In this document: positions 552 to 40,714 of the stretch, piece by piece | Layout: each line of letters opens with the position of its first letter | Numbering within the stretch: the first letter of the stretch is position 1 | Source: an uncultured Acidobacteriota bacterium | GTDB lineage: Bacteria > Acidobacteriota > UBA6911 > CAINFC01 | Length of the DNA stretch: 41,622 nt | Direction of reading: 5' to 3' | Assembly (NCBI GenBank): GCA_903847975.1 | Contig: CAINFC010000069.1 | Span: 1-41,622, forward strand | The notes under the pieces: model-generated | Database searches by the model: none | What the model was told of the DNA's origin: nothing | Seen by the model: the letters and a program-made list of their open reading frames with translations, nothing else | Position numbers and translations under genes: made by a program

Positions 552-564
552 CAGGAGGCCCGGC

Positions 565-1107: not shown

Positions 1108-1123
1108 CAATTAAGGAAACGCT

Positions 1124-1504: not shown

Positions 1505-1597
1505 GCATCCGTCCGACCGAGACCTTTCCGCCTGGGCATCCGCCAGGAAATGGTCCCCAGGGACCGTATTGATTACCTATAAGGAGCAATCGGCATT

Positions 1598-4711: not shown

Positions 4712-4750
4712 TTTAATGACCTTAGAACTGGGAAAGAGAGTAGATGGCTC

Positions 4751-6469: not shown

Positions 6470-6498
6470 ATCGAGAACCGAAGGGAACGGATGATTCT

Positions 6499-7038: not shown

Positions 7039-7071
7039 TTCCCATCCAATACGGATTACGGAGAATAGGCG

Positions 7072-8493
7072 ATGCAGAAAATTACCATTGAACCGGTAAC
7101 CCGAATCGAAGGCCATGCCAAAGTCACCATTCACATGGATGATCAGGGGCGGGTGGATAAGGCCTTTTTTCATGTCAACGAATGGCGCGGATTCGAAAAA
7201 TTTACGGAAGGGCGGCCCTTTTTCGAAATGCCCCAGATTCTTCCGCGGATCTGTGGCATCTGCCCGGTGAGCCACCACCTGGCGGCTGCCAAGGCATGCG
7301 ACATCGTGGCGGGAATACGGCCGACGCGGACCGCAGCCCTGCTGCGGGAGCTGATGCACATGGGGCAGACCGTGCAGTCCCACGGCATGCACTTTTTCGA
7401 ACTGGCCGGGCCGGACCTGCTGCTGGGCTTCGATGCCGCCCCGGCCATTCGCAACGTAGCCGGCCTGGTGCAGGCCAACCCGGAGCTGGTCAAAAAAGCC
7501 GTGCAGGTGCGAGCCTTCGGTCAGGAGGTGATCCGCCACCTCGGGGGGCGCCGGATCCATCCCACCTTTGCGGTTCCCGGCGGGGTCAACAACCCGCTGA
7601 CCATCGAAAAGCGGGATGCCATCCTTTCCCAGATGGAGGAAACCGTTAAGACCGTCAAGTTCGCCCTGGGGATCGCCCGGCAGTGGTTCGAGACCAACGC
7701 GGTTCTGGTTAAAAAATTTGCGGTGTTTCCCACCGGCTACATGGGAACGGTGGACGCGGAAGGCGCCTTGAACCTGTACGACGGGTCGCTTCGGATGATC
7801 GACCGCGAGGGGCGTCCCTGGGAAGAGTTTGACCCCCAGGACTACCTGGAATATATCGGGGAGCATGTCGAGGACTGGTCCTACCTGAAATTTCCGTTCT
7901 ACCGCAAGCTGGGCTGGCCCAACGGAGTGTACCGGGTCGGTCCCCTGGCGCGGCTGAACGTGGCCTCCCGGGTTACCACCCCCATGGCACAGCAGGAGTT
8001 CCGGCACTTCAAGTCCCTGAACTACGGGCGTCCGGTGGAAGGGACCCTCTGGTACCACTATGCTCGGCTGATCGAAACCCTTTATGCCCTGGAGCGGATG
8101 GCCGAAATCCTGGATGATCCGGAGATCCTGTCGACCGATCTGACCGGGACAGCCAAGGGGTATGTCGGGGAAGGGGTCGGATGCCTGGAAGCCCCGCGGG
8201 GCACGCTGTTTCATCACTTCCGGGCGGATGAAAACGGCACGCTTACCATGGTCAACCTGATTGTGGCCACCGGTCACAACAATTACGCCATGTCTAAAGC
8301 GGTGGAAATGGTGGCCAAGGCCTTCGTCGACGGCAATAACCTGCACGAGGGGATGCTCAACCGCGTGGAAGCGGCCATCCGCGCCTACGATCCCTGCCTG
8401 TCCTGCTCCACGCATGCCATGGGAGGGATGCCCTTGACTGTGGAGCTGATTTCCCCGGAGGGAGAGCTGCTGAACTCCATTTCGCGCGGATAG
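7072..8493 (+). CDS. hoxH: [NiFe] hydrogenase large subunit, HoxH type (group 3d-like)
   Basis: This 473-residue catalytic subunit carries both [NiFe] ligand pairs. L1 is RICGICPVSHH (C61, C64) and L2 is DPCLSCSTHAMGG (C442, C445). The L1 spelling CGICPVSHHLAAAKA and L2 spelling DPCLSC-THA are characteristic of group 3d NAD-coupled bidirectional hydrogenases. The N-terminal IEPVTRIEGHAKV motif is also standard. H448 closes the L2 motif and is the usual cleavage point, so about 25 C-terminal residues should be removed after nickel insertion; the protease needed is encoded immediately downstream. A GGAG ribosome binding site lies before the ATG. Group assignment rests on motif reading, not on a tree. 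Confidence 0.96.
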   Translation: MQKITIEPVTRIEGHAKVTIHMDDQGRVDKAFFHVNEWRGFEKFTEGRPFFEMPQILPRICGICPVSHHLAAAKACDIVAGIRPTRTAALLRELMHMGQTVQSHGMHFFELAGPDLLLGFDAAPAIRNVAGLVQANPELVKKAVQVRAFGQEVIRHLGGRRIHPTFAVPGGVNNPLTIEKRDAILSQMEETVKTVKFALGIARQWFETNAVLVKKFAVFPTGYMGTVDAEGALNLYDGSLRMIDREGRPWEEFDPQDYLEYIGEHVEDWSYLKFPFYRKLGWPNGVYRVGPLARLNVASRVTTPMAQQEFRHFKSLNYGRPVEGTLWYHYARLIETLYALERMAEILDDPEILSTDLTGTAKGYVGEGVGCLEAPRGTLFHHFRADENGTLTMVNLIVATGHNNYAMSKAVEMVAKAFVDGNNLHEGMLNRVEAAIRAYDPCLSCSTHAMGGMPLTVELISPEGELLNSISRG

Positions 8494-20907: not shown

Positions 20908-21011
20908 CGCGGAAGCCCTCGCATCCAGAAATTCAAGGAAAGGCAGCGGAATCCTGCCTGCCGCGGCCCCCGGGAAGAAACATCTTCCGGCGGGGGGGCG
21001 GAAAACGAAAT

Positions 21012-21461
21012 TGCCGGGCAGGCCATAAGCCGAATTTTGTTCCTCCCCGGCCGACGGGATTTCCTGTCGGCCGGAGGGTGGCGATCATTCCTCTAGGCGG
21101 CGGATCGCTCCGCCGCTCAAGCGACTTACCCGGAAGCAGCGAGCGGGCCGCTCGCGTGCCGGCCGTCATCCGGCGGCACCGCCTCCCTATTTAGTCTTGC
21201 TCCGTGTGGGGTTTTCCCTGCCGGCGCGGTTGCCCGGGCCGCGGTGCGCTCTTACTTTAAGCTCCTTGCGGAGCCGCACCATTTCACCCTTACCCCGGCT
21301 TCCTTGCGGAAACCGCGGGCGGTATCTTTTCTGTGGCACTTTCCGTACCCTTGCGGATCCCTCCCGTTAGGAGGCACACTGCCCTGCGGAGTTCGGACTT
21401 TCCTCCCCGCCTCCCGCCCCGAAGGAACGAGCGGCGCAGCGATCGCCTGTCCTGCCCGGCA
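21012..21461 (-). ncRNA. rnpB: RNase P RNA (bacterial type A)
   Basis: Read on the minus strand, this carries the hallmark blocks of bacterial RNase P RNA: GAGGAAAGTCCGAACTCCG near the 5' end (CR I), GGGTAAGGGTGAAATGGTGCGG in the middle, and ACAAAATTCGGCTTATGGCC at the 3' end (CR V). TGCCGGGCAGG at the 5' end (21451-21461) pairs with CCTGCCCGGCA at the 3' end (21012-21022) as helix P1, which sets the boundaries to within a few bases. At about 450 nt it is somewhat longer than the E. coli RNA (377 nt). The RNA is the catalytic part of the enzyme that matures tRNA 5' ends. Confidence 0.96.
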
Positions 21462-25067: not shown

Positions 25068-25447
25068 CTCCTGCCATGCACACCCCAGGTTTGCGAATAG
25101 GGGAAAATAGCGTCCTGGTGACGGACCCTCTCTTCGGGGATCTTCCGTCCCGGATCATCCCATCTTCCAGCAACCGAACGATCTATCCATATAGTAATTA
25201 TATTTATATCACTGTTTTTGACATTCCATTTTCCTGAACCACTTTCCTTGACAAATACCTCCGATTCAATAAAAAATTGGATCAGCTGAATTAAATTCGA
25301 ACGATTCCCTTGTTGCCGACAATTCGATCTGGTCAAGCGCAACCATGGAAACAGAAAAAGTACGCCCCCTCATGAAGCCGATTTACACGGCAATGGCCGG
25401 AATATTCAGCGCATCTTACACTTTCCAATTCACCGAAGGAGGTTTGA
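25064..25447. other. AT-rich intergenic region before receptor A
   Basis: No credible gene is visible. The part after 25180 is much more AT-rich than its surroundings. It contains TTGACA at 25248-25253 followed 17-18 bases later by an A-run ending AAAAAT, then a leader of about 170 bases with AGCTGAATT and CCAATTCACCGAA, both of which recur in the leader of receptor B. AAGGAGG (25436-25442) precedes the start codon. Confidence 0.6.
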
Positions 25448-28400
25448 ATGTCTCAGCTTAAGTTATTTCTTTCCATTGCACTTATATGTGTTATGGGTGC
25501 TTCGGCAGCCTATGGGCAGGAAGTACGAGCCAGCATCACGGGGATGGTTACGGATCCGAGCGGCCTGGTCATTCCCGGCGCCACGGTGGTTGTGACCCAG
25601 ACGGCAAAAAATGTTTCCGTATCCACCATGACCAACGACGCCGGACTTTTCGTTACTCCGTTTCTGGCTCCGGGGACCTACAATCTGACGGTGGAAATTT
25701 CCGGATTCAAGAAGTATCTGCGGGAAAACATCGTGCTCCAGGCCCAGGACAAAGCCCGATTGGATGTGAAGCTCGAACTGGGTTCTCTAGCCGAAACAGT
25801 GACAGTGAACGAATCGGTATCCATGCTCCAGACCGAAACGGCCACCCGTTCCCAGGTTATTGCCAAGGAGCTGATCGACAACGTTCCCACCCAGGGCCGC
25901 AATCCGTTTCAGATTGCCTGGTCCGCGGCCGGTGTGGTCAAGGCGGGCGACTTCCGCTATCTGCGCTCCTTCGATATCGGCGGCACCTCCGGCTTTTCCG
26001 TTAACGGCGGTCGCAACCGGGAAAACGAAGTTCTGCTGGACGGGGTGAGCAACGTAAAAGGCGATCGGACGGTGATCCATGTTCCCACGATGGACTCGGT
26101 CCAGGAGTTCAAAGTCCTGACCAACACCTACGATGCCCAGTACGGCAGGACGGGCGGCGGGATCGTGACCATTGTTACCAAGCAGGGCACCAATGCTTTT
26201 CACGGAAGCGTGTACGAATACTTTCAAAATAAAGTTTTGAATGCCAACCAGTGGGAATTAAACCGGGCTGGCACTAAAAAGCCGCCCAATAACATCAACC
26301 AGTTCGGTTTTCAGGCCAACGGACCGATCTATATTCCGGGTGTTTTCGACGGGCGCAATCGACTGTTCGGAATGATTGCCTACGAGGGGATTCGCCAGCG
26401 CTCTGCTGATCCAGGGACCTCCACTGTTCCTCTCATGGACTGGCGTACCGGCGATTTCTCCACCCTGCAGAATGCCCAGGGGCAGCCAGTATTGATTTAT
26501 GACCCCCTGACCACCCAGGCGAACGGGACCCGAACCGCTTTTTCCGGAAACAGAATTCCAGCCAACCGGATCAACCCGGTGGCCGCCAAGGTGCTCACCT
26601 ATCTTCCGCCTCCGGTCAGCGCGGGGGACGGACCGGCCCACATTAATAACTACCCTTATCCTTCGCGCTGGATCGGCGATTTGGCCCAGTGGATCGGACG
26701 GGTCGATTTCACGCCCTCTGCCAATCACAGCCTTTCTTTCCGCTACGGTCAGAATCCCTGGACGGAATTCCGCGGATTAGTCTGGATGGGATCGAACCCC
26801 GCCGAGCCTACAGGAAATGCACCGTTAATCCGAAACGGAAAAAACGCTACATTTGATTGGACCTGGATTACCTCACCGAAAATGACCTTCAACCTTCGCG
26901 GGGGCCTGAGCCGCTGGGAGGAGACCACCGGCAGCTCCTACGGTGCCGGCTTCGATCCAAGGCAGCTGGGCATGGCGGACAGCCTGGTTTCCCAGTTCCG
27001 GCAGCTGCAGTTTCCGCGGTTCAACCTGGGGACTTATCAGGCGATTGGTGCGGACCGGCTTCTGAATTTGACTGCCAACGACACCTATTCCTTCCAGCCC
27101 AACTTCAATCTGATTTTAGGCAAGCATATTCTGAAATACGGGTTTGAGGGCCGGCAGTACAAGGATAACATTGCCAATCCCGGCATGGCGGACGGGGTCT
27201 ATACCTTCGGTAAAAACTGGACCCAGGCACGGGCTTCCCAGGCCGATGCAGTTTCCGGCAATGAGATTGCAACTTTCCTGCTCGGCTATCCGACCAGTGC
27301 ATCCGTGGATCGGAACATCGACCCGGCTTATGTGCATCGATACTATGCCCTCTTTCTGAATGACGACTGGAAGATCAGCCAGAATCTAACCCTGAACCTC
27401 GGATTGCGCTGGGACCTGGAAATGCCTCCTATGGAGCGCCACGACCGAATGCTGCGCGGATTCGATTTCAACGTGGCCAGCCCCATCGCCTCCAAGGTGA
27501 CCGGCTTGAACCTGAAGGGCGCGGTAATGTTTGCCGGCGTCAGCGGGGCTCCGCGGACCGCTTTCGATCCGGATAAGAACAATTTCCAGCCACGGATCGG
27601 TGTCGCTTACCGCCTATGCGAAAAGTGGGCCATCCGCGGCGGGTACGGCCTCTACTACCTGGGTCAAAATGATTGGGGAGCAGCGCAGGGATTCAGCCGT
27701 ACCACCGGTGCCGTGGTCAGTACGGATGGGAATCTGACTCCTGCGGTCAACCTGGTCAATCCGTTTTCCAACCAGGCGGGTGGTCAACTTTTATCCCCGG
27801 TCGGCAACAGCCTTGGGGCTTCCAGCTTTCTCGGAGAGGGTGTTACTGCCCTTTACCTGGATCGGTCGCTTGCTTACTCCCACCAGTATTCGATCGATAT
27901 CGAGCGCGAATTGCCGGGCAATATGCTGGTGGAGGTGGCTTACGTCGGCAACATCACTAAAAAGCTGCCGATCAGTTTCGGCACCAACTACATTCCGGCT
28001 GCCGAATTGGGGCGCCGTACCTCTGCCGGGGTCATCGACACCGCCTACTATACGGCCCAGGTTCCCAATCCTATGGTCGGCCTGATTCCCAACAACGCTG
28101 CCCTGAACGGCGCAACCATTACCCGGCAGACCCTGATGTATGCCTATCCGCAGTATTCCGGTTTGACGGTAGGAAATGTTCCTATCGGCAGTGCACGATA
28201 CGACAGCTTCCAGTTCAAGGCAACCAAGCGCTTCAGCCAGGGTCTTTCCTTCGTATCCAGCTACACGGTCATGAAAAACATCGAACAGGTTAATATCCTC
28301 AATGCTCAGGACTTTAAACTCTCCGATCCTTTTTCGACCCCTCTGGAAAAGCGTTCCGCCGGCAATATCGATCTTCCCCAGAAATTCGTCATTGCCGGAA

Positions 28401-28918
28401 CGTGGAATCTTCCTTACGGGCACGGTCAGAAGTATGGAGCCAGCGCACCGGCGGTTTTGAATGCGATTGCCGGAGGGTGGCAGTTCAATTTCAACATCTC
28501 CTACCAGAGCGGCTGGGTGCAGAGCTATCCGAATGCCAGACAGGTCAAGGACGGCGATTCCAAGGTCAGCAATATCACCATGGAAAAGTGGTTCAATACG
28601 GACCTTTGGACGGACTCTTCCGGGGCACGGGTAAAAGCGCAGGAATCCTACACCTTGCGCAATTATTCGACTCTCTTCAGCAACGTCCGCACACCCGGCT
28701 ACAAGAACTGGGATATTTCCGTGAATAAGTACTTTGCGATTCGCGAGCCTTTGAAGCTGCAGTTCCGGTGCGAGATGATCAATGCTTTCAACCACCCCTG
28801 GTTTCCGAATCCGGCCAGTGGCGCCACGGATGTAACCAACGCCAACTTTGGTCGGCTTGATCCCGTCCAGCGCAATCTGCCGCGATATGTGAAGCTGGCC
28901 CTGGTGCTGAACTGGTAG
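25448..28918 (+). CDS. Oar-like TonB-dependent receptor A (carboxypeptidase-regulatory domain + barrel)
   Basis: This 1156-residue outer-membrane protein has a signal peptide cleaved after AAYG (residue 23). A carboxypeptidase-regulatory-like beta-sandwich at about 28-110 shows VTDPSGLVIPGATVVVTQ and SGFKKYLRENIVL. A TonB plug at about 120-240 has SVNGGRNRENEVLLDGVSN, VQEFKVLTNTYDAQYGRTGGGIV and KQGTNAFHGSVYEY. A large beta-barrel follows, ending in a terminal aromatic residue (…LVLNW), as expected for Bam-dependent insertion. Such Oar/SusC-like proteins import or bind large ligands; the ligand here is unknown. It is clearly the sister of receptor B, with the same length and near-identical domain spacing. 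It has its own promoter-like site and terminator, so it is probably monocistronic. Confidence 0.9.
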   Translation: MSQLKLFLSIALICVMGASAAYGQEVRASITGMVTDPSGLVIPGATVVVTQTAKNVSVSTMTNDAGLFVTPFLAPGTYNLTVEISGFKKYLRENIVLQAQDKARLDVKLELGSLAETVTVNESVSMLQTETATRSQVIAKELIDNVPTQGRNPFQIAWSAAGVVKAGDFRYLRSFDIGGTSGFSVNGGRNRENEVLLDGVSNVKGDRTVIHVPTMDSVQEFKVLTNTYDAQYGRTGGGIVTIVTKQGTNAFHGSVYEYFQNKVLNANQWELNRAGTKKPPNNINQFGFQANGPIYIPGVFDGRNRLFGMIAYEGIRQRSADPGTSTVPLMDWRTGDFSTLQNAQGQPVLIYDPLTTQANGTRTAFSGNRIPANRINPVAAKVLTYLPPPVSAGDGPAHINNYPYPSRWIGDLAQWIGRVDFTPSANHSLSFRYGQNPWTEFRGLVWMGSNPAEPTGNAPLIRNGKNATFDWTWITSPKMTFNLRGGLSRWEETTGSSYGAGFDPRQLGMADSLVSQFRQLQFPRFNLGTYQAIGADRLLNLTANDTYSFQPNFNLILGKHILKYGFEGRQYKDNIANPGMADGVYTFGKNWTQARASQADAVSGNEIATFLLGYPTSASVDRNIDPAYVHRYYALFLNDDWKISQNLTLNLGLRWDLEMPPMERHDRMLRGFDFNVASPIASKVTGLNLKGAVMFAGVSGAPRTAFDPDKNNFQPRIGVAYRLCEKWAIRGGYGLYYLGQNDWGAAQGFSRTTGAVVSTDGNLTPAVNLVNPFSNQAGGQLLSPVGNSLGASSFLGEGVTALYLDRSLAYSHQYSIDIERELPGNMLVEVAYVGNITKKLPISFGTNYIPAAELGRRTSAGVIDTAYYTAQVPNPMVGLIPNNAALNGATITRQTLMYAYPQYSGLTVGNVPIGSARYDSFQFKATKRFSQGLSFVSSYTVMKNIEQVNILNAQDFKLSDPFSTPLEKRSAGNIDLPQKFVIAGTWNLPYGHGQKYGASAPAVLNAIAGGWQFNFNISYQSGWVQSYPNARQVKDGDSKVSNITMEKWFNTDLWTDSSGARVKAQESYTLRNYSTLFSNVRTPGYKNWDISVNKYFAIREPLKLQFRCEMINAFNHPWFPNPASGATDVTNANFGRLDPVQRNLPRYVKLALVLNW

Positions 28919-28944
28919 GCAGGGTTTAGCAGAATCGTTTGACG

Positions 28945-28983
28945 GGCCCGGGGAGGACGGAAAGCCCTCCCCGGGCCATTTTT
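28945..28983 (+). terminator. Intrinsic terminator of receptor A
   Basis: GGCCCGGGGAGG (28945-28956) pairs perfectly with CCTCCCCGGGCC (28966-28977), followed by ATTTTT. Near-identical stems follow receptors B, C and D. Confidence 0.88.
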
Positions 28984-29444
28984 GTGTCGGCAGGGAACCG
29001 AATTTCTTTTGCGATTGCGGTTTAGGCGAACAAGGACAGCCAAGTGGGTATTTCTGTTTCGCATATCCCGCAAACAATTCCCTGACTTCTGGTATAGTAA
29101 TTTTTCTTGGCCGAAGATCAGTTTTTTCGAATTCGACTTGACAATTCCTGCAAGGCAAAGAAGAATTGAGACAAAGAAGATTTGGTGAGCTGAATTGTCA
29201 TTTTCGAAAATGGATTCGCTCTCATTTTATTACAGCGAACTGAAACCCTTTTTTTCTTGCCAATTCAGCGAAAGCGGTAGCCCCAAGCGGTAGTGCCCTT
29301 GCCATGTGTCTTATTTAATCAAACGATCGGGCTCGGTCCGTCGGAACGAGGAAAAAACAGGGGCTTCTTTATGTCTCTTGTGGTTTGTCGGGACAATGGG
29401 TAAAAACAGTAACTCTTTTCTCCATTCCAACGGGAGGTTAATGA
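28984..29444. other. Intergenic region and long leader of receptor B
   Basis: No gene is supported here. Behind the promoter-like site at 29138-29166 lies a leader of about 275 bases. It shares AGCTGAATT and CCAATTCAGCGAA with the leader of receptor A, but about 165 extra bases lie between that second block and the ribosome binding site GGGAGG before 29445. A small palindrome, ATTTTCGAAAAT, lies near 29200. Confidence 0.55.
29138..29166 (+). promoter_or_regulatory. Promoter-like site of receptor B
   Basis: TTGACA (29138-29143), a 17-base spacer starting ATTCCTGC, then AAGAAT (29161-29166). The same arrangement precedes receptors C and D, with matching TTGACAATTC starts. Confidence 0.6.
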
Positions 29445-32400
29445 ATGTTTCGAAAATTTTTTTTTCTTTCTCTCATGTTCCTGTGCATCCTGGGAACTTC
29501 GGCAGCCTATGGGCAGGAGGTACGTGCCAGCATAACCGGAATCGTAACGGATCCGAGCGGCTTGGCTATACCTGGAGCCTCGGTGGTGGTGACCCAGACG
29601 GCAAAAAATGTTTCCGTATCCACCATGACCAACGACAGCGGGCTGTTTGTTACCCCGTTTCTGGCCCCTGGAACCTATCAGCTGGTTGTGGAGCTCACCG
29701 GATTTAAAAAGTATATCCGGGAAAACATCATCCTGCAGGCTCAGGATAAAGCGCGCCTGGATGTCCGACTGGAGCTGGGTGCGATTTCGGATACCATCAC
29801 GGTCAACGAGTCGGTTTCCATGCTGCAGACCGAGACGGCTTCGCGGTCGCAGATCCTCGCCAAGGAGTTGATCGACAACATCCCTACCCAGGGGCGCAAC
29901 CCCTTCCAGATCGCCTGGGCGGCGGCCGGTGTGACCAAGACCGGAGCCTTTCGCTATTTACGCTCCTTTGACATCGCCGGCACGACGAATTTTTCCGTCA
30001 ATGGCGGTCGGAATAACACCAACGAGGTGCTGCTCGACGGGATCAGCAATGTCAGGGGGAGCAATAACACCGTTATCCACGTTCCCACCATGGATTCGGT
30101 ACAGGAATTCAAGGTTTTAACCAATACCTACGACGCCCAGTATGGACGCACCGGCGGCGGGATCGTGACCATCGTCAGCAAGCAGGGAACCAACGTGTTC
30201 CACGGCAGCGTTTACGAATATAACAACAACCGGGTGTTTAACGCCAACCAGTCCGAACTGAACCGGGCCGGGACGAAGAAAGGGGCCTATAACCTGAACC
30301 AGTTCGGCTTTCAGGCCAATGGACCGATCTATATTCCCAAGATTTTCGACGGCCGCAACAAACTGTTCGGGATGATTGCCTATGAAGGAATCCGCCAGCG
30401 CGGTGCCGATCCTCTGGTAAGAAATTTTCCTCTGGATTCCTGGCGGACCGGCGATTTTTCGAACCTTTATAATGCCTCGGGGCAGCCGGTACTGATTTAT
30501 GACCCGCTCACGACGCAGGCCAACGGATCGCGGACCGCGTTTGCCGGCAACAGGATTCCCTCCAACCGCCTCAATCCGGTAGCGGTGAAGGCCATCAGCT
30601 ACATGCCTTCGCCGACCGGTCAGGGAGACGGGCCCGCCCATCTGAATAACTATATTATTCCCTCCCGCTGGATCGGCGATTTGAACCAGTGGATCGGACG
30701 CGTCGATTTTACTCCCACGGCCAATCATAGCTTTTATTTCCGCTACGGGCAGAATCCCTGGAGCGAATATCGCTCCCTGGTGTGGGGCGGCTCCAACGCA
30801 GCGGAACCGACGGGCAACGCTCCGCTGATCCGCAACGGGAAGAATGCCACTTTCGACTGGACCTGGATTACCTCGCCGAAGATGACCTTCAATCTGCGCG
30901 GCGGTTTGAGCCGCTGGTGGGAGCAGACCGGCACTTCGTATGCCGCCGGGTACGATCCGCGCCAGCTGGGTTTTGCCGACAGCCTGGTGGCTCAGTTTAC
31001 CAAACTGCAATTTCCCTGGTTCGGCCTCGGAAACTACCAGCCGATCGGTTCCACCTCCCCTAAAAATTTCACCATCGACGATTCCTATTCCCTGCAGCCC
31101 AACTTCAACCTGATTCTCGGCAAGCACATCATGAAGTTCGGGTTTGAAGGGCGTCAGTATTTCGATAATTCCTCCAATGCCGGCCTGGCCAGCGGTGCCT
31201 ACAGCTTCGGCAAGAACTGGACCCAGGCCAACGCTTCCACAGCCGATGCTCTATCCGGCAACGAGATCGCCACCTTCATGCTCGGCTATCCTACCAGTGC
31301 CTACGTGGATCGCAATATCGATCCGGCCTACGGGCATAAGTACTTCGCCCTGTTTTTCAATGACGACTATAAATTATCGAAAAAGCTGACCCTGAACCTC
31401 GGCCTGCGCTGGGATTTGGAGATGCCTAAAACGGAACGATACAACCGGATGCTGCGGCAATTCGACATAAACACCGCCAGTCCGATCGCTTCCCAGGTCA
31501 CCGGGCTCACCTTGAAGGGAGTGCCGACCTTTGCCGCCGTTTCGAATCCTCGATCCGCTTTCGATCCGGATAAAAACAACTTTCAGCCCCGGGTAGGGAT
31601 GGCCTACCGGCTCTGCGATAAGTGGGTTCTCCGAGGAGGGTACGGTCTTTATTATATTGGTCAGGGCGATTGGGGTGCTACTTCCGGTTTCACCCGCCAG
31701 ACCGTGGCCACGGTCAGCACCGATGGAAATCTGACTCCGGCGGTAACCCTCACTAATGCTTTTGCCAACCAACCGAATGGCCAGCTGTTAAAAGCAATCG
31801 GCAGCAGCCTGGGGGCCTCCAGCTTTCTGGGAGAAGGCGTCAGCTTCCTCTATCCGACTCGGCCGGTGGCATTTTCCCATCAATATTCCGTTGACATCGA
31901 GCGCGAGTTGCCAGGGAACCTGCTGGTGGAATTGGCCTATGTGGGCAACATCTCCAAAAAGCTGACCCTGGGTGCTTCTGCCAACTACATCCCGGCCGGC
32001 GAATTGGGCCGAAGGACCTCCAGCGGGGCGATCGACACCGCCTATTATACGGCCAGGATCGCCAACCCCATGGCCGGGTTGATCCCCAATAACGCCGCTT
32101 TGAACGGCACGACCATCACCCGTACCCAGCTGATGTATCGGTATCCGCAGTTTACCAATATCACTCTGAACGGCTTGCCTATCGGCAGCGGCATGTATCA
32201 AGGTCTTCAGCTCAAAGTCACCAAGCGGTTTTCTTACGGACTTTCCTTTGTCGGCAGTTACACGGCCTCGAAGAATCTGCAGAAGGTTCGATTGCTCAAT
32301 GCCCAGGACTTCAATATCACCGATCCCGCGGCAACTCCTTTGATCAATGAATCCGCCTATACAGTCGATGTGCCCCAGAAGTTTGTCATTGCCGGAAGCT

Positions 32401-32915
32401 GGAATCTGCCCTTTGGAATCGGTCAGAAATTCGGGGCAAACTGGCCGGGTGTGGTGGACGCTATTTTGGGTGGCTGGCAATTCAACTTTAACATCTTCTA
32501 CCAGAGCGGCCCGGTGGAGGCCTACCCGAATGCCAGACAGGTTCAGGGCGGTTCCGCGGCGGTCGAAAAGCCGACCATCGAAAAATGGTTCAACACTTCG
32601 CTCTGGAACGATTCCAGCGGCAAGCGGGTGTCCGCACAGGAACCTTATACCCTGCGAAATTTTCCCCTCTATTTCAGTAACGTGCGGATGCTCCCGTATA
32701 AAAACTACGATCTTTCCATCAATAAATACTTCCCGATTCACGAGACTTTGAAGCTGCAGTTCCGATGCGAAATGGTCAATGCCCTGAATCATCCGTACTA
32801 CAACTCTATAGCCCCCGGTTCCACCGACGTTACCAGTGCGGCCTTTGGTCAGCTGAACCCGCAACAGGGCAACCTGCCGCGCTACGTCAAATTTGGATTA
32901 GTGCTCAACTGGTAA
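29445..32915 (+). CDS. Oar-like TonB-dependent receptor B, sister of A
   Basis: This 1156-residue protein has the same architecture as receptor A: signal peptide to residue 23 (…TSAAYG), carboxypeptidase-regulatory domain (VTDPSGLAIPGASVVVTQ), plug (SVNGGRNNTNEVLLDGISN and TYDAQYGRTGGGIVTIVSKQGTN) and barrel ending LVLNW. Long stretches of the N-terminal 240 residues match receptor A, for example QTAKNVSVSTMTND; the barrel differs more, with changes concentrated in probable loops. This pattern fits tandem duplication followed by divergence of ligand-contacting loops. The ATG at 29445 is chosen with GGGAGG 7 bases upstream; an ATG at 29441 is out of frame. Confidence 0.9.
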   Translation: MFRKFFFLSLMFLCILGTSAAYGQEVRASITGIVTDPSGLAIPGASVVVTQTAKNVSVSTMTNDSGLFVTPFLAPGTYQLVVELTGFKKYIRENIILQAQDKARLDVRLELGAISDTITVNESVSMLQTETASRSQILAKELIDNIPTQGRNPFQIAWAAAGVTKTGAFRYLRSFDIAGTTNFSVNGGRNNTNEVLLDGISNVRGSNNTVIHVPTMDSVQEFKVLTNTYDAQYGRTGGGIVTIVSKQGTNVFHGSVYEYNNNRVFNANQSELNRAGTKKGAYNLNQFGFQANGPIYIPKIFDGRNKLFGMIAYEGIRQRGADPLVRNFPLDSWRTGDFSNLYNASGQPVLIYDPLTTQANGSRTAFAGNRIPSNRLNPVAVKAISYMPSPTGQGDGPAHLNNYIIPSRWIGDLNQWIGRVDFTPTANHSFYFRYGQNPWSEYRSLVWGGSNAAEPTGNAPLIRNGKNATFDWTWITSPKMTFNLRGGLSRWWEQTGTSYAAGYDPRQLGFADSLVAQFTKLQFPWFGLGNYQPIGSTSPKNFTIDDSYSLQPNFNLILGKHIMKFGFEGRQYFDNSSNAGLASGAYSFGKNWTQANASTADALSGNEIATFMLGYPTSAYVDRNIDPAYGHKYFALFFNDDYKLSKKLTLNLGLRWDLEMPKTERYNRMLRQFDINTASPIASQVTGLTLKGVPTFAAVSNPRSAFDPDKNNFQPRVGMAYRLCDKWVLRGGYGLYYIGQGDWGATSGFTRQTVATVSTDGNLTPAVTLTNAFANQPNGQLLKAIGSSLGASSFLGEGVSFLYPTRPVAFSHQYSVDIERELPGNLLVELAYVGNISKKLTLGASANYIPAGELGRRTSSGAIDTAYYTARIANPMAGLIPNNAALNGTTITRTQLMYRYPQFTNITLNGLPIGSGMYQGLQLKVTKRFSYGLSFVGSYTASKNLQKVRLLNAQDFNITDPAATPLINESAYTVDVPQKFVIAGSWNLPFGIGQKFGANWPGVVDAILGGWQFNFNIFYQSGPVEAYPNARQVQGGSAAVEKPTIEKWFNTSLWNDSSGKRVSAQEPYTLRNFPLYFSNVRMLPYKNYDLSINKYFPIHETLKLQFRCEMVNALNHPYYNSIAPGSTDVTSAAFGQLNPQQGNLPRYVKFGLVLNW

Positions 32916-32945
32916 AGCAAAGCCTAACCTGCTGCTACGCGTGCT

Positions 32946-32983
32946 GCCCGGGGGGGACTCGAAGTCCTCCCCGGGCTTTTTTT
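32946..32983 (+). terminator. Intrinsic terminator of receptor B
   Basis: GCCCGGGGGGGA (from 32946) pairs with TCCTCCCCGGGC (32965-32976) with one mismatch, followed by seven T residues. Confidence 0.88.
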
Positions 32984-33333
32984 CAGGCCTTTTTCCCGCT
33001 CCCTAAAACCGCAAACGGCCAGTAAAATGAGCCGCAGCAACCACCGGCCGAAGCGCCGTCCTGCCGGGTGCTGTTCCCGCGAAGATTTTCCAAACCGGTA
33101 CCGGATTCTATCCAATTTTTCCCTTGACAATTCTGCCCTGCAGCAGGAGAATCTATTCCCTCAGAAAGAGGCATAATAACGCCATGACTATGTAGGGTCG
33201 ATTGGCTTTTGCTCAGCTCTGGGAAAGCGGAGCAATTTTATGAATTGGTTTGCTTTTTACTGACGACCCGCGGAGGGGTAGCGGTTCCAGGTACCTAGCA
33301 ATTGTTTAATTTTCGAGTTGAAAGGAAAAGTGC
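32984..33333. other. Intergenic region and leader of receptor C
   Basis: No gene is visible. It holds the promoter-like site at 33124-33152 and a leader of about 180 bases. The final part, TTTAATTTTCGAGTTGAAAGGAAAAGTGCATG, resembles the corresponding end of the receptor D leader. Confidence 0.55.
33124..33152 (+). promoter_or_regulatory. Promoter-like site of receptor C
   Basis: TTGACA (33124-33129), a 17-base spacer starting ATTCTGCC and ending GCAG, then GAGAAT (33147-33152). Confidence 0.6.
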
Positions 33334-36300
33334 ATGAACAAGCTGTTCCCAAGCAGGGCGGGAAGATTTCTTTCCCTTCCTGCTCTTATGGCTCTCGCGG
33401 CAATGCTCCTGATCGTAAGCACCCTAACGGTTCCCGCTCAGGAATATCGTGCCCAGGTGAGCGGGGTAGTTACCGATCCTTCGGGAGCGGTGCTGCCGGG
33501 CGCCCAGGTGACCATTACCAGCCTGGAAAAGAATGTCGACTATAAGTCGGTAACCAATAACGAAGGGGCCTACGTGGTACCCTTCCTGACACCGGGCAAA
33601 TACAGCGTGGCGATCGAGTTGACCGGCTTCAAGCGCTTTATGCGCTCCGAAGTGGAGCTGAAGGTCAACGACAAGCTGCGTATCGATGCCGCCCTGGAAA
33701 TCGGCGGAATTTCCGAAACGGTAACCGTTTCCGGGCAGACCGCCACGGTGGAAACCGATACCGCCAGCCGCGGTACGGTCATCGACCGCAAGGAGATCGC
33801 CAGTTTGCCGACCTCCGGACGCAACCCCTTCCAGTTGGCCTGGCTGACTCCGGGGGTGCAGAAGTCGGGAAGCTGGCGCATGCTGCGGCCCATGGACACG
33901 GCCGGCAGCGGCGGCATGTCGATTAACGGTGGCCGGAGCCAGGAAAATGAAATCCTGATCGACGGTATGACCGCCATCAAGCCCAACCGGGGTGTCTCCC
34001 TGGTGCCCACCATGGATGCCACCCAGGAGTTCAAGGTGCAGACCAACAGCTACGACGCCCAGTACGGACGCAACGGCGGCGGCGTGGTCAATGTCTCCTT
34101 GAAGTCCGGCACCAACAAATATCATGGCAACCTTTTCTGGGACGAGCAGCAGAAGATTTTCAACGCCAATACCGCCGAGCTCAACCGGGCGACCAACAAC
34201 ATCGACGAAAACGGCAAAGCGCGCCGTCAGCCGGGCCGGATTCACATGTTCGGTGCCGAAATCGACGGGCCGGTGATCAAGGACAAACTTTTCGTCATGC
34301 TGAGTTATGAAGCCATCCGGCAGTTTACGGGGGATCCCGCAACCTACACCATTCCGCAGGCGGATATCCGCGGCGGAAACTTCCAGGGCCTGCGCAACTC
34401 CTCCAACCAGCCGGTCATCATTTACGACCCGATGACCACCCGGCTGGCGGCGGACGGCAAGTCCTACATCCGCGATCCCTTCGCCAACAACATCGTCCCG
34501 GCGAACCGGATCAATCCGATTGCTGCCAAAGCGGCCACCTATCTGCCTCAGCCCAACTCCCTGGGCACCGGGCCGGCCCAGCTCAGCAACCTGATTCAGC
34601 CTTCCCAGTGGATCATTCACTGGGATTCCTACATCGGCCGGCTGGATTATGCCCTCAACCAGAACAACAACTTCTTTATCCGCTACGGACATAACCTGCT
34701 CCATGAAGGGCGAGGCTACCGTTACTTCAATGTCGCCGACCCGACCGGCAACGCTCCCCTGGTCCGTGGAGACACGAGCGGAGCTGCCGACTGGACCTCC
34801 ACCATTAACCCGACCACCATTTTCAATCTGCGCGTCGGCATGCTGAAGTGGCACGTGCGCAACGGCTCGCTGGGATATGGGTTCAACCCGGCTACTTTGG
34901 GTTTTGCCTCCAGCCTGACCTCCCAGATGGTCGGTCCGTCCCATTTTCCTCTGTTTCAGATGGAAGGCTATGAGCCGTTGGGCAACGGCGGCCAGAACCT
35001 GACACCCGACTACACCTACAGCAGCCAGGGAAATCTGACCAAGCTGTGGGGCCGTCACACATTCAAAATGGGGACGGAATTCCGCATTTTCCGGAGCAAT
35101 GTGGCTCAGGCCGGATACACCAGCGGTCAGTACTCTTTCTCCATTATCGACACCGGCGCCAACCCCCAGCTGGCGGATAAGGTATCGGGCAGTTCCTATG
35201 CCTCGTTCCTGCTGGGATATCCTTCCGGCGGAGTCATTCAGAAGAACGCCTACACCGCCAACCAGGGGCTTTACTACGTGCTCTTCTTCCAGGACGACTG
35301 GAAGGTCAGCCGCCGGCTCACGCTGAACCTTGGCATGCGCTGGGACTATGAGACGCCTTGGACCGAGCGTTTCAACCGCATCACCCGCGGATTCGCCTTC
35401 GGGCAGCCGGCACCGATTTCGGCTACCGGGCTGACTCTGACCGGCGGACTGCTGTATGCCGGAACGGAAGGAGCCTCCCGGGAGGCTTTCAACCGCGATC
35501 GCAACAACTTCCAGCCTCGGTTCGGGCTGGCCTACATGATGAACGAAAAAACATCGATCCGCGGCGGATACGGCCTGTATTATCTGGGCCAGAGTGCCAC
35601 CGGGTCCAACCTGGGCTTTTCTCAGGATACTCCCATTATCCAGCGCACCCAGGTGGGCATACCCGTGGCCACTCTGACCAACCCGTTCCCGTCCAAGCTG
35701 CTGGATCCGATCGGCAATTCCCAGGGAACCGCCACCAACCTCGGACTCTCCCTGGGGGTGAACTACCTGGATCGCGACTTGCCTTACGCCCACGTGTTTT
35801 CCGTCGACGTCGAGCGACAGCTCCCCTGGAATGTCGTGGCCAACGTCGGCTTCATCGGCAACCGGACCCGTCACCTGCCGGTATCGCTGAACCTGAACGC
35901 CATTCCGACCTCGGAACTGGGCAAGGTCAGCACCTATTACACGGAAAGCGTGCCCAACCCGATGGCCGGGAAGCTGCCCAACAATGCAGCTCTGAACGGG
36001 GCTACCATTCAGCGCTTCCGGCTGATGTACAAATATCCCCAATACGCCGGGCTCACTCTTTCCAACGTCCCGATCGGTAAGAACGATTATGCCGGATTCC
36101 AGTCCAAGATCGCCAAGCGTTTCTCGGAGGGATTCAGCCTGATTGCCAGCTACACCATCGCCAAAACGCTGGAAGAGATGAATACTCTGAACGACCAGGA
36201 TGTGGACCATACCGACTTCCTGAAGACGAAGCTGGAAAGGCGCATCGCCCGCGAGCTGGACAGCCCGCAGCGCTACACCCTGGCCACCGTCTGGTCCCTG

Positions 36301-36783
36301 CCTTTCGGCAAGGGGAAAATGGTAGGCAGCGACGTTCCGACCTGGGCCAACCATATCATCGGCGACTGGCAGTGGAACCTGATGGTGGAATATTTCTCCG
36401 GTTATGCCCTGGATCATCCCGGCGGACCGAAGACCATCGATGGAACCGCCAAGCTGCCGGCCGACGAACGGACGCTGGAGCGGTGGTACAACGGCAGCGT
36501 GTTCAAGGCACAGGCGCCTTATACCCTGCGCGATTATCCCACCATGTTCCCCGATGTCCGTAACCCGGACCGGTTCGATGTCAGCGTGAACATCATGAAG
36601 AACTTCATGCTTACCGAAAGGCTGAAGCTTCAGTACCGCCTGGACATCATCAACGCCCTGAACCATCCGTGGTTCATGAACAACTACACCACTTCGCCCA
36701 CGGCGTCGGGGTTGGGAGGATTGAACCAGACCCAGGCCAACCTGGCGCGAACCCTGCACATGCAGCTGCGGCTTGAGTTCTAG
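33334..36783 (+). CDS. Oar-like TonB-dependent receptor C
   Basis: This 1149-residue outer-membrane protein has a signal peptide with probable cleavage after VPA (residue 35), then a carboxypeptidase-regulatory domain (VTDPSGAVLPGAQVTITS and TGFKRFMRSEVEL), a plug (SINGGRSQENEILIDGMTA and SYDAQYGRNGGGVVNVSLKSGTN) and a barrel ending MQLRLEF with the terminal Phe. It is of the same family as receptors A and B but in a separate subtype, marked by a longer n-region, the RNGGGVVN plug motif and the EF end. It is the sister of receptor D, with identical length. The ligand is unknown. GAAAGGA lies upstream of the ATG. Confidence 0.9.
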   Translation: MNKLFPSRAGRFLSLPALMALAAMLLIVSTLTVPAQEYRAQVSGVVTDPSGAVLPGAQVTITSLEKNVDYKSVTNNEGAYVVPFLTPGKYSVAIELTGFKRFMRSEVELKVNDKLRIDAALEIGGISETVTVSGQTATVETDTASRGTVIDRKEIASLPTSGRNPFQLAWLTPGVQKSGSWRMLRPMDTAGSGGMSINGGRSQENEILIDGMTAIKPNRGVSLVPTMDATQEFKVQTNSYDAQYGRNGGGVVNVSLKSGTNKYHGNLFWDEQQKIFNANTAELNRATNNIDENGKARRQPGRIHMFGAEIDGPVIKDKLFVMLSYEAIRQFTGDPATYTIPQADIRGGNFQGLRNSSNQPVIIYDPMTTRLAADGKSYIRDPFANNIVPANRINPIAAKAATYLPQPNSLGTGPAQLSNLIQPSQWIIHWDSYIGRLDYALNQNNNFFIRYGHNLLHEGRGYRYFNVADPTGNAPLVRGDTSGAADWTSTINPTTIFNLRVGMLKWHVRNGSLGYGFNPATLGFASSLTSQMVGPSHFPLFQMEGYEPLGNGGQNLTPDYTYSSQGNLTKLWGRHTFKMGTEFRIFRSNVAQAGYTSGQYSFSIIDTGANPQLADKVSGSSYASFLLGYPSGGVIQKNAYTANQGLYYVLFFQDDWKVSRRLTLNLGMRWDYETPWTERFNRITRGFAFGQPAPISATGLTLTGGLLYAGTEGASREAFNRDRNNFQPRFGLAYMMNEKTSIRGGYGLYYLGQSATGSNLGFSQDTPIIQRTQVGIPVATLTNPFPSKLLDPIGNSQGTATNLGLSLGVNYLDRDLPYAHVFSVDVERQLPWNVVANVGFIGNRTRHLPVSLNLNAIPTSELGKVSTYYTESVPNPMAGKLPNNAALNGATIQRFRLMYKYPQYAGLTLSNVPIGKNDYAGFQSKIAKRFSEGFSLIASYTIAKTLEEMNTLNDQDVDHTDFLKTKLERRIARELDSPQRYTLATVWSLPFGKGKMVGSDVPTWANHIIGDWQWNLMVEYFSGYALDHPGGPKTIDGTAKLPADERTLERWYNGSVFKAQAPYTLRDYPTMFPDVRNPDRFDVSVNIMKNFMLTERLKLQYRLDIINALNHPWFMNNYTTSPTASGLGGLNQTQANLARTLHMQLRLEF

Positions 36784-36810
36784 TCCGCACTGACTTCCGG
36801 CACCCGAACG

Positions 36811-36848
36811 GCCCGGGGAGGATTTGAAGTCCTCCCCGGGCTTTTTTT
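36811..36848 (+). terminator. Intrinsic terminator of receptor C
   Basis: GCCCGGGGAGGA (from 36811) pairs with TCCTCCCCGGGC (to 36841), followed by seven T residues. The stem is almost the same as those behind A, B and D. Confidence 0.9.
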
Positions 36849-37200
36849 CTTCTGCCGCTCTCTCCGAAGATCATTCCTGTAATTAACCTGGGAACGGTTT
36901 CGTCTCGAACGGCCGCTGCGTCTCATCCCGGCGTGGACGGTAATACCCCGCCTTCTGTTTTAAAGTCCCCGCTGCCTCCGGCAATTACTTCCGGTCTTAC
37001 TTGACAATTCCCGTGCCCGGCAGGAAAATTGAAATGACCGGAAGAAGATGGAAAGCCGGCCACATCATCGTAAAGTTCCTTGGCTGGCTCCCGGCTGCGG
37101 GAAAGCCGGGCAGACCGTATCGGAGGATTTGCCGGGGAGGGGCGAACCTACAAATCGAATCCTTATTTCATTTAATGTTGTAATTGAAAGGTAAAACTGC
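36849..37200. other. Intergenic region and leader of receptor D
   Basis: No gene is supported. The promoter-like site at 37001-37029 is followed by a leader of about 170 bases with a GC-rich hairpin (GGCTCCCGGCTGCGGGAAAGCC region near 37085-37110) and the end TAATTGAAAGGTAAAACTGCATG. Confidence 0.55.
37001..37029 (+). promoter_or_regulatory. Promoter-like site of receptor D
   Basis: TTGACA (37001-37006), a 17-base spacer starting ATTCCCGT and ending GCAG, then GAAAAT (37024-37029). Confidence 0.6.
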
Positions 37201-40200
37201 ATGAAAAAACAGCTCCAAAACAGGAAGAGACAGGTTCTTCTGCTTCCTGCTGTTTTAGCTCTTGGTGCGATGTTCCTGACGGTGAACAACATGACCGTTC
37301 CCGCCCAGGAATATCGAGCCCAGGTGAGCGGGGTGGTGACCGACCCGTCGGGAGCAGTTCTGCCCGGCGCCCAGGTGACCATCAACAGCGTGGAAAGAAA
37401 TGTGGACTACAAGTCGGTCACCAACAACGAAGGCGTCTACGTGATTCCTTTTCTAACCCCCGGGAAATACAGCCTTTCCGTGGAGCTGACCGGCTTCAAG
37501 AAATTTGTGCGCTCGGAAATCGAGCTGACGGTCAGCGACAAGCTCCGCGTGGATGTGCGCATGGAGCTGGGCGGGATCAGCGACACCGTGACCGTTTCCG
37601 GGCAGACGGCCACGGTGGAGACCGACACGGCCAGCCGCGGTACGATCATCGACCGCAAGGTGATCGAAAACCTGCCGACCTCCGGGCGAAATCCCTACCA
37701 GCTGGCCTGGCTGACTCCCGGAGTGCAAAAATCGGGCAGCTGGCGCATGCTGCGGGCAATGGATGTGGCCGGCAGCTCCGGCATGACGATCAACGGCGGT
37801 CGGTCCCGGGAGAACGAACTTCTGGTGGACGGAATGACAACCGTAAGGCCCAACCGGAATGTCTCCCTGGTTCCGACCATGGATGCCACCCAGGAATTCA
37901 AGGTGCAGACCAACAGCTATGATGCCCAGTACGGGCGCAACGGCGGGGGCGTCGTCAACATTTCCCTCAAGTCGGGAACCAACCAGTACCATGGCAATCT
38001 TTTCTGGGACGAACAGCAGAAGATATTCAACGCCAATACCTCCGAACTGAATGCGGCCACCAACAATATCGACGAGTACGGAAAAGCCCGGCGGCAGCCG
38101 GGACGGATTCACATGTTCGGCGCGGAAATCGACGGGCCGGTGATCAAGGACAAGCTCTTTGTCATGTTGAGCTACGAAGCCATCCGCCAGGCCACGGGCG
38201 ATCCCCAGACCCTTACCCTTCCGATCTCCGCCATCCGCGGCGGGGATTTCAGCTCCCTGCGAAATTCCTCCAACCAGCCGGTCATCATCTATGATCCCAT
38301 GACCACCCGCCTGGCCGCCGACGGAAAATCCTATATTCGCGATCCGTTCCCCAATAACGTGATTCCGGCGAGCCGGATCAATCCCATCGCCGCCAAGGCC
38401 GGCCAGTACTATCCCACGCCGTTCTCGGCAGGAAGCGGGCCTGCCGCGCTCAACAACCACATCACTCCCTCCAACTGGATTATCCACTGGGATTCCTATA
38501 TCGGGCGGCTGGATTATGCCCTGAACCAGAAGAACAATTTCTTTGTGCGCTACGGCCACAACCTGCTGCACGAAGGACGCGGCTACCGCTATTTCAACGT
38601 GGCCGACCCGACCGGCAACGCACCCCTGGTCCGCGGGGATACCAGCGGGGCGGTAGACTGGACCTCCACGTTCAATCCGACCACCATTTTCAACCTTCGG
38701 GTCGGAATGCTGCGATGGCTCACCCGGAACGGAACCCTGGGATACGGATTTAACCCCGCCTCTCTTGGCTTCGCGTCCAGCCTTGTTTCCCAGATGACCC
38801 AGCCGTACCATTTCCCCTATTTCAGCCTGGAAGGATATGAAGCCCTGGGCAACACCTCGCAGAGCCATACCCCGGAATACACTTACAGCATGCAGGCCAA
38901 CATGACCAAGCTCTGGGGCAGGCACACCATCAAGGCCGGGACCGAGATTCGCGTTTTCCGCGAGAACAACGTGAACCCGGGACGGACCAGCGGCACGTTC
39001 AGCTTCACCGCCATCGACACCGGCGCCAACCCGCAGCTGGCCGACAAGGTTTCCGGAAATTCCTTTGCTTCCTTCCTCCTGGGTTACCCTTCCAGTGGCT
39101 CCATCGACAAGAACGATTTCTTTTCCTACCAGGGTCTCTATTACGTTTTATATCTGCAGGACGACTGGAAGATCAGCCGGAAGCTCACCCTGAACCTGGG
39201 GCTGCGATGGGACTACGAAACGCCATGGACCGAGCGCTTCAACCGCATCACCCGCGGTTTCGCCTTCGGCCAGCCGGCACCGATCAGCGCTCCCGGGCTT
39301 AATCTGACCGGCGGACTGCTTTACGCCGGGACCAGCGGCGTTTCCCGGATGTCCTTCAATCCGGACCGCAATAATTTTCAGCCGCGAGTCGGAGTCGCTT
39401 ATCTTCTGAATGAAAAGACCTCCATCCGCGGCGGGTACGGATTTTACTTCCTCGGCCAGAACGGTGCGGGCTCCAATCTGGGCTATTCCCAGTCCACGCC
39501 CATCATCCAGCGGACCCAGACCGGAGTTCCTGCTGCTACCCTCAGCAATCCGTTCCCGGCCCAGCTGCTGCTGCCTACCGGCAATTCGCAGGGGCTTTCC
39601 ACCAACCTGGGGCTGGCGCTGACCGTCAACTACCTGGACCGCGACCTTCCCTATGCCCATGTCTATTCCGTGGATATCGAGCGTCAGCTCCCCTGGAATA
39701 TGGTGGCCAATATCGGCTATACCGGCAACCGCACGCGGCACCTGCCGGTCGGCATCGGGTTGAACTTCATACCCTCCAATGAGATGGGCAAGGTCAGCAC
39801 CTACTACACGGAGAGAATCCCCAACCCGATGGCCGGCAAACTTCCCAACAACGCTGCCCTGAACGGGACGACGATCGAGCGCTTCCGGCTGATGTACAAG
39901 TATCCGCAGTACAGCGGGCTGACGCTGTCCAACGTACCGATCGGCAAAAACTCCTACAACGGATTCCAGACCAAGCTGGTCAAGCGGTTTTCCGAGGGGT
40001 TCACTCTGATCACCTCCTATACGATCTCGAAAACGCTGGAAGAAGTGAACCTGCTCAATGCCCAGGATGCCAACCTGGACAATCCCCTGCTGACCAGACT
40101 GGAAAGGCGCCTGGCCAACGAGGTGGACAGCCCGCAGCGGTTCACCATGGCCACGGTATGGACCCTGCCTTTCGGGAAGGGGCAGAAGTTCGGGGCCGAT

Positions 40201-40650
40201 GTTCCCGGCTGGATGAACCAGATCATAGGCGGATGGCAGTGGAACACCATGGTGGAATACTTCGCCGGCTATCCTCTGACGCACCCCGACGGGCCCAAAA
40301 CCGTGGAGCAGAGCGCCAAGCTTCCCTCCGACGAGCGTACTCTGGAGCGCTGGTATAACGGCAGCATCTTCCGGGCTCAAACCGCATATACGCTGCGGGA
40401 CTATCCTACCATGTTTCCCGACGTGCGCAACCCGGACCGCTTCGATGTGAGCATCAACATTCTGAAGAACTTCCCGATTACCGAGAAGCTCAGGCTGCAG
40501 TACCGTCTCGATGTGATCAATGCCTTTAACCATCCCTGGTTTATGGGGAATTACACCACCTCGCCGACCGCTTCCGGCCTGGGGGGATTGAACCGAACCC
40601 AGGGCAATCTGGCGCGAACGCTGCACATGCAGCTGCGGATTGAGTTCTAA
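37201..40650 (+). CDS. Oar-like TonB-dependent receptor D, sister of C
   Basis: This 1149-residue protein has the same domain order as receptor C: signal peptide to about residue 35 (…MTVPA), carboxypeptidase-regulatory domain, plug (INGGRSRENELLVDGMTT and SYDAQYGRNGGGVVNISLKSGTN) and barrel ending MQLRIEF. Large blocks are nearly identical to C, including AEIDGPVIKDKLFVMLSYEA and FNRITRGFAFGQPAPIS, while stretches such as DPQTLTLPISAIRGGDFS differ. The C/D pair looks closer than the A/B pair, which suggests a later duplication. AAAGG precedes the ATG. Confidence 0.9.
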   Translation: MKKQLQNRKRQVLLLPAVLALGAMFLTVNNMTVPAQEYRAQVSGVVTDPSGAVLPGAQVTINSVERNVDYKSVTNNEGVYVIPFLTPGKYSLSVELTGFKKFVRSEIELTVSDKLRVDVRMELGGISDTVTVSGQTATVETDTASRGTIIDRKVIENLPTSGRNPYQLAWLTPGVQKSGSWRMLRAMDVAGSSGMTINGGRSRENELLVDGMTTVRPNRNVSLVPTMDATQEFKVQTNSYDAQYGRNGGGVVNISLKSGTNQYHGNLFWDEQQKIFNANTSELNAATNNIDEYGKARRQPGRIHMFGAEIDGPVIKDKLFVMLSYEAIRQATGDPQTLTLPISAIRGGDFSSLRNSSNQPVIIYDPMTTRLAADGKSYIRDPFPNNVIPASRINPIAAKAGQYYPTPFSAGSGPAALNNHITPSNWIIHWDSYIGRLDYALNQKNNFFVRYGHNLLHEGRGYRYFNVADPTGNAPLVRGDTSGAVDWTSTFNPTTIFNLRVGMLRWLTRNGTLGYGFNPASLGFASSLVSQMTQPYHFPYFSLEGYEALGNTSQSHTPEYTYSMQANMTKLWGRHTIKAGTEIRVFRENNVNPGRTSGTFSFTAIDTGANPQLADKVSGNSFASFLLGYPSSGSIDKNDFFSYQGLYYVLYLQDDWKISRKLTLNLGLRWDYETPWTERFNRITRGFAFGQPAPISAPGLNLTGGLLYAGTSGVSRMSFNPDRNNFQPRVGVAYLLNEKTSIRGGYGFYFLGQNGAGSNLGYSQSTPIIQRTQTGVPAATLSNPFPAQLLLPTGNSQGLSTNLGLALTVNYLDRDLPYAHVYSVDIERQLPWNMVANIGYTGNRTRHLPVGIGLNFIPSNEMGKVSTYYTERIPNPMAGKLPNNAALNGTTIERFRLMYKYPQYSGLTLSNVPIGKNSYNGFQTKLVKRFSEGFTLITSYTISKTLEEVNLLNAQDANLDNPLLTRLERRLANEVDSPQRFTMATVWTLPFGKGQKFGADVPGWMNQIIGGWQWNTMVEYFAGYPLTHPDGPKTVEQSAKLPSDERTLERWYNGSIFRAQTAYTLRDYPTMFPDVRNPDRFDVSINILKNFPITEKLRLQYRLDVINAFNHPWFMGNYTTSPTASGLGGLNRTQGNLARTLHMQLRIEF

Positions 40651-40677: not shown

Positions 40678-40714
40678 CCCCGGGGAGGTTTCGCCGTCCT
40701 CCCCGGGCTTTTTT
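40678..40714 (+). terminator. Intrinsic terminator of receptor D
   Basis: CCCGGGGAGG (40678-40687) pairs with CCTCCCCGGG (40698-40707), followed by CTTTTTT. It is the fourth copy of the same terminator type in the array. Confidence 0.88.

Follow-up and report, generated by a model that had tools for sequence, protein, structure and literature searches.

Introduction

The transporters of the SusC/SusD systems of Bacteroidota combine a TonB-dependent barrel and an N-terminal domain resembling carboxypeptidase. The receptors described here are of the same barrel type and carry the same kind of N-terminal domain, but no SusD gene adjoins them and the SusD model PF14322 gave 0 matches in the whole genome (a Bacteroides control was positive).

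Oar of Myxococcus xanthus, as portrayed in PMC6434023, combines a CarboxypepD_reg (PF13620) extension, a plug with a TonB box and a large barrel of 22 predicted strands, and is needed for secretion of the protease PopC. Our receptors, A to D, resemble Oar in this plan of extension, plug and barrel, the likeness being one of domain plan. They differ in that Oar is tied to PopC secretion, whereas for the array we infer import; furthermore, no ExbB, ExbD or TonB gene was seen beside the array. For Candidatus Solibacter usitatus, PMC3174227 describes expanded groups of divergent paralogues, TonB-dependent receptors included, with saturated substitutions and duplications judged to be old. Many diverged paralogues, saturation and old duplications recur in our genome; however, the Solibacter groups are described there as having no conserved order or orientation, whereas the array holds four receptors in tandem. 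As to substrates, a paper on an acidobacterium (PMC10564751) goes no further than suggesting oligosaccharide uptake as a possible role of TonB-dependent receptors.

The window, by which we mean the whole stretch of DNA that was analysed, is one complete contig (G000:C69, 41622 bases), one of the 326 that make up a genome of 8.13 Mb, and genus, family and order are each represented by this genome alone. With a probability of roughly 0.78, the array consists of four stand-alone Oar-like TonB-dependent transporters in separate transcription units, derived from two old sublineages that came to adjoin, each of them then doubled in tandem and diverged under purifying selection. We read the array as a receptor family of known kind that has expanded in an ordinary way, plus one small puzzle, the shared arms of its terminators.

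Results

Layout and domain architecture of the array

Four large open reading frames follow one another on the plus strand: receptor A, a TonB-dependent receptor with a CarboxypepD_reg extension (25448..28918, 1156 aa), receptor B (29445..32915, 1156 aa), receptor C (33334..36783, 1149 aa) and receptor D (37201..40650, 1149 aa). The list of reading frames and Pfam agree on four tandem members of one receptor family, as an earlier note on this DNA had proposed, and the paired lengths reported there are present in the list. C and D indeed align without a gap; the equal length of A and B is partly coincidental, with one gap on each side of their alignment. The alternation of subtypes described in the same note was not found, the actual order being AABB (AA'BB'), with A/B and C/D as the two pairs.

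The gaps from receptor to receptor are 417–526 bp, too short for a SusD or sigma factor gene, and Pfam gave no match to SusD, TonB or a sigma/anti-sigma factor in 16 other frames of the window (a subset of its ORFs), in agreement with the claim that the block lacks such accessory genes. Since PF14322 has no match genome-wide, it is normal here for receptors to lack that SusD partner. Receptor A starts 425 bases past the end of an sdhCAB-like gene set. Downstream of D lie its terminator, a 143-aa frame that matched no Pfam model and then the end of the contig, so that a further receptor copy may lie beyond the contig.

All four receptors match PF13620 (CarboxypepD_reg, E 7e-20 to 1.3e-18) and the barrel model PF25183 (OMP_b-brl_4, E 3e-170 to 6e-185). 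The barrel model PF00593 matched all four more weakly, with the match in C below cut-off, and the plug model PF07715 was weak in three of the four (E about 5e-4, below its cut-off). An N-terminal signal peptide, judged by eye, precedes the extension in A–D. When a profile of A–D and one further homologue (L059) was compared with the PDB, the plug of ferric enterobactin receptors was matched (their residues 19–165, E 1.7e-5), together with a weak match to carboxypeptidase D (E 0.018); single-sequence PDB searches with A and with C returned nothing at E<=0.01. An AlphaFold model from five aligned sequences had a mean pLDDT of 27. Between extension and plug the alignment of the four receptors shows the stretches ETVTV, DTITV, ETVTV and DTVTV, which we take to resemble a TonB box.

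On these matches the array is predicted to encode Oar-like (CarboxypepD_reg) TonB-dependent receptors, the plug match being weak. The mature protein would then run from a carboxypeptidase-regulatory-like extension through a TonB-box-like stretch and a plug into a large barrel. TonB dependence and the direction of transport are deduced from this plan: the Ton system, by pulling on the plug, would bring a bulky nutrient into the cell.

The receptor family in the genome

A search with A, in which 150 of 160 candidates were scored, found 103 stretches of the genome at E<=1e-30, some of these stretches being pieces of one ORF. Matches lying within 3 kb of each other formed nine groups, and among those listed the window array is the only group of more than two; one group (C289) is a single 1213-aa frame in two pieces, and another (C208) gains a further small piece, its third, from a 229-aa frame when the search is made with C. 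The view that a 15-kb block is devoted to one outer-membrane family stands as far as the four tandem receptors go, but in a genome with 103 matching stretches such a block does not stand out far. The array is one worked example of how a genome, here probably of the Acidobacteriota, can come to have about a hundred stand-alone receptors, namely via old tandem doublings.

Two further observations on the family deserve mention. One stretch (G000:C46:3720-4535) is a receptor remnant with an internal TAG that adjoins another receptor. Another two receptors, L021 (G000:C66:231-3380) and L024 (G000:C67:21466-24615), have the shortest combined end branches (0.18) among 35 aligned rows, C and D being next (0.26); they lie on separate contigs, their downstream DNA is 81% alike across 146 bases, and they probably represent a younger doubling than those of the array.

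Relatives and age of the duplications

Within the class, with up to 19 candidates scored per genome, the threshold of E<=1e-190 was reached in three of 38 genomes, our own included, the other two being G023 and G024 with one match each. Across the phylum, four of 396 genomes, again including our own, matched A at E<=1e-210 (two candidates scored per genome). G023 and G024 belong to two genera of one other family (f11), and their orthologous proteins are 74.0% identical to each other, 59–60% identical to C and D, and 45–48% identical to A and B.

The tree obtained was ((C13,(A,B)),((C,D),(G024,G023))), where C13 is a cousin from the same genome. The 13- and 14-row trees were computed on a chosen subset of the 35-row set (with L071 added in the latter). 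Support was 100/100 for each of A with B, C with D, and C/D with G023 and G024; the joining of C13 to A/B was weaker (87/92 on 13 rows, 98/98 with L071 added). An exclusive clade of A–D was rejected (AU p 1.6e-52 and 1.3e-45), and the six-row alternative of A–D with G023 and G024 but without C13 was not (AU p 0.069). Given that G023 and G024 are nearer to C and D than A and B are, and that an exclusive A–D clade is rejected, the AB/CD split would predate the separation of our family from f11, unless genes moved between families.

The earlier note had envisaged two rounds of duplication within the array, to be judged by whether orthologues in relatives are closer than A is to B. Two layers do exist and each pair was doubled later, but the AB/CD layer predates the families. 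At the inner doublings, no relative was found closer to A than B is, or to C than D is, and these doublings appear lineage-specific at present sampling. At the outer split the opposite holds: G023 and G024, at 59–60% identity to C and D, surpass A and B at 43–48%, as expected of old paralogues.

Horizontal transfer could give the appearance of an old AB/CD split if a C/D gene had passed from one family to another. On such an account a C/D (or A/B) gene originated in a different family of the class and was inserted next to a distant cousin, which we regard as unlikely. In its favour, GC3 is 0.68–0.70 in A and B, compared with a mean of 0.781 (sd 0.043, minimum 0.676) in 28 other receptors of the genome and 0.78 in C and D; however, this composition is only marginal within that range. 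The C/D orthologue has a patchy distribution, occurring at E<=1e-190 only in G023 and G024 among 37 other genomes of the class, a pattern that loss also yields. Within their short contigs, G023, G024 and C13 have no neighbouring genes in common with the array (reading frame lists by eye, and Pfam), whereas terminators common to both pairs speak against this account.

The same neighbourhoods were considered as a hint to the ligand and set aside, as they have nothing in common: C13 adjoins a spermidine-synthase-like gene, G024 adjoins transglutaminase/TPR and bile-acid-symporter genes (both by Pfam), and G023 adjoins a sulfatase-like frame (by eye).

Divergence within and between the pairs

A and B are identical at 854 of 1155 positions (74%, 73.9%) and differ at 301 amino acids; C and D are identical at 904 of 1149 (79%, 78.7%) and differ at 245. 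Across the pairs identity is 44–48%. Within-pair divergence is about equal to that of the orthologues of two genera in one family (74%). By the NG86 method, dN and dS were 0.193 and 1.42 for A–B and 0.150 and 0.99 for C–D, with synonymous sites near saturation in both pairs, and the second-layer doublings accordingly do not look recent (dS 1.4 and 1.0). Copying of a two-gene block would have given the order ACBD. The order ABCD makes the two doublings look separate, which is in line with dS values of 1.42 and 0.99, both near saturation, and we infer that the doublings are old and separate. In the favoured reading, the AB and CD sublineages, having split before our family and f11 separated, would now adjoin, and each would later have been doubled in tandem, its copies diverging under purifying selection.

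The N-terminal domains had been described as far more conserved than the barrel loops. This holds in direction for A–B, with identities of 87% in the extension, 83% in the plug and 72% in the barrel, but is overstated, the C–D values being 80%, 86% and 79%; the barrel figures take strands and loops together. Across pairs, extension and plug are 48–55% identical, compared with 43–48% for the barrel.

The same architecture, the same promoter type and the low dN/dS might suggest that all four receptors do one job and are kept for the amount of product. Such redundancy seems improbable given 301 and 245 amino-acid differences within the pairs and, across them, differences at more than half of the aligned residues. 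The data are compatible with specialisation on different ranges of substrates, as the earlier note had suggested, and the four receptors presumably bind different ligands or are used under different conditions.

Exchange between the copies

At four-fold sites, identity was 204/426 (0.48) for A–B, 257/479 (0.54) for C–D and 0.39–0.44 across pairs; chance identity, computed for three pairs, was 0.363 (A–B), 0.421 (C–D) and 0.37 (A–C). Identical runs of 48 nt (A–B) and 25 nt (A–D) were present. When runs were tested over all polymorphic sites, the p values were 0.0005 (A–B), 0.008 (A–D), 0.056 (C–D) and 0.20–0.53 for the other three pairs, and were discounted because conserved protein segments inflate them. 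On silent sites, A–B gave p 0.027 (codon columns 60–75) and the other five pairs 0.53–0.94, uncorrected for six pairs. Silent identity of A–B was also higher N-terminally (48/74 as against 387/751, p 0.037). The check for gene conversion among A–D, which the earlier note had called for, is therefore unremarkable at silent sites in five of the six pairs and leaves one candidate, a possible short exchange between A and B near codon columns 60–75; gene conversion as an account of the coding parts was set aside.

That note had also raised antigenic variation by recombination, which is not borne out: silent sites are near saturation and five of the six pairs have no shared silent tract. Put more broadly, the array could be a reservoir that recombines receptor segments and so alters surface loops, for antigenic or phage escape. 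Its variable segments do coincide between A/B and C/D (Spearman 0.57, p 4e-6), but ordinary constraint would produce this too; the variable segments of C–D correlate with those of the G023–G024 orthologue pair (0.39, p 0.003) and those of A–B do so weakly (0.25, p 0.06), which fits ordinary constraint. Of high-identity tracts shared between copies, which along with silent cassettes are a hallmark of antigenic variation, the only candidates are the A–B 48-nt and A–D 25-nt stretches, and the former, with its silent-site p of 0.027, fails correction for six pairs. The best match beyond the array, among stretches at E<=1e-30, is only 45% identical, so that there is no long silent cassette, short ones being undetectable in this way. 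Terminators common to the entire array would suit such a reservoir. Four-fold identity of 0.39–0.54 against chance values of 0.36–0.42, unremarkable silent runs in the other five pairs (p 0.53–0.94), four intact frames and a promoter-like site before each make it very improbable.

Transcription signals and shared terminators

Each receptor is preceded by one TTGACA-17/18-xAxAAT site, 200–307 bases upstream and with 10 of 12 consensus matches. A consensus scan placed these plus-strand sites at 25248..25277 before A (TTGACA-18-AAAAAT), 29138..29166 before B (TTGACA-17-AAGAAT), 33124..33152 before C (TTGACA-17-GAGAAT) and 37001..37029 before D (TTGACA-17-GAAAAT). In the alignment of the four promoter regions CTTGACAA is invariant, and TTGACAATTC is common to three of them. 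The region contains 9 promoter-like sites, where shuffles average 7.5 (sd 3.1); for terminator-like sites the corresponding figures are 22 and 20.0 (sd 5.0). As these counts do not exceed chance, the promoters are proposed from the location of the sites and the invariance of CTTGACAA.

A hairpin followed by a T run lies 28–31 nt past the stop of each receptor, on the plus strand at 28947..28975 (A, arms CCCGGGGAGG/CCTCCCCGGG, by exact genome pattern search and folding), 32947..32975 (B, one arm base different, by terminator scan and arm comparison), 36812..36840 (C, by exact pattern search and scan) and 40679..40707 (D, by exact pattern search). The scan, with a loop limit of 8, listed the B and C hairpins only, the loops of A and D being 9 bases. 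The arms, of 10 bases each, are alike at 19–20 of 20 positions, and an exact search found CCCGGGGAGG/CCTCCCCGGG with a loop of 4–14 at three places in the genome, all in the array (the B copy being one base off). The best arm likeness in 30 other downstream regions tested was 16/20; these comprised 26 paralogues from our genome, C13 among them, with L059, G024, G023 and G296, while L020 and L028 were left out for lack of downstream sequence. The hairpins of C13 and G024, close to the same position, differ in their arms and lack a clear T run; in G023 folding found no strong hairpin at the corresponding place. Speaking against uniqueness, four other receptor pairs share short downstream stretches, namely L012/L021, L012/L024, L019/L030 and L021/L024.

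Judged from the DNA alone, each receptor would be its own transcription unit, with a sigma-70-like promoter, a leader of ~160–280 nt, the receptor and a hairpin terminator; promoter use is deduced from position and motif. A candidate promoter together with a shared-arm hairpin terminator at each receptor is the new observation here. A literature search (partly narrow queries, mostly of papers outside subscription) returned no title on this array or on shared terminators in tandem receptors. The doubled copies would retain their own promoter-like site and terminator, and rapid reshuffling is not evident.

That these arms recur in both old lineages suggests homogenisation or some form of constraint. 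Local exchange may have kept the terminators alike, as concerted evolution of the terminator only, with the hairpin perhaps a joint for duplicating or swapping units, although we consider this unlikely. The shared arms nevertheless provide a small testable case of possible exchange confined to a 3' element.

Other features of the window

A diverged, shorter OMP_b-brl_4 protein of 823 aa, without a CarboxypepD_reg match, is encoded at 9465-11936 on the minus strand, and an RNase P RNA of bacterial class A lies at 21011-21458, also on the minus strand. A NiFe hydrogenase gene set occupies 72-8493 on the plus strand, with the PF00374 match at 7072-8493. Its NuoF-like protein (1598-4711), which has NuoE- and NuoG-like neighbours, forms a fusion with a pyridine nucleotide-disulphide module of GltD-like type, and by general likeness the set may be of the electron-bifurcating type.
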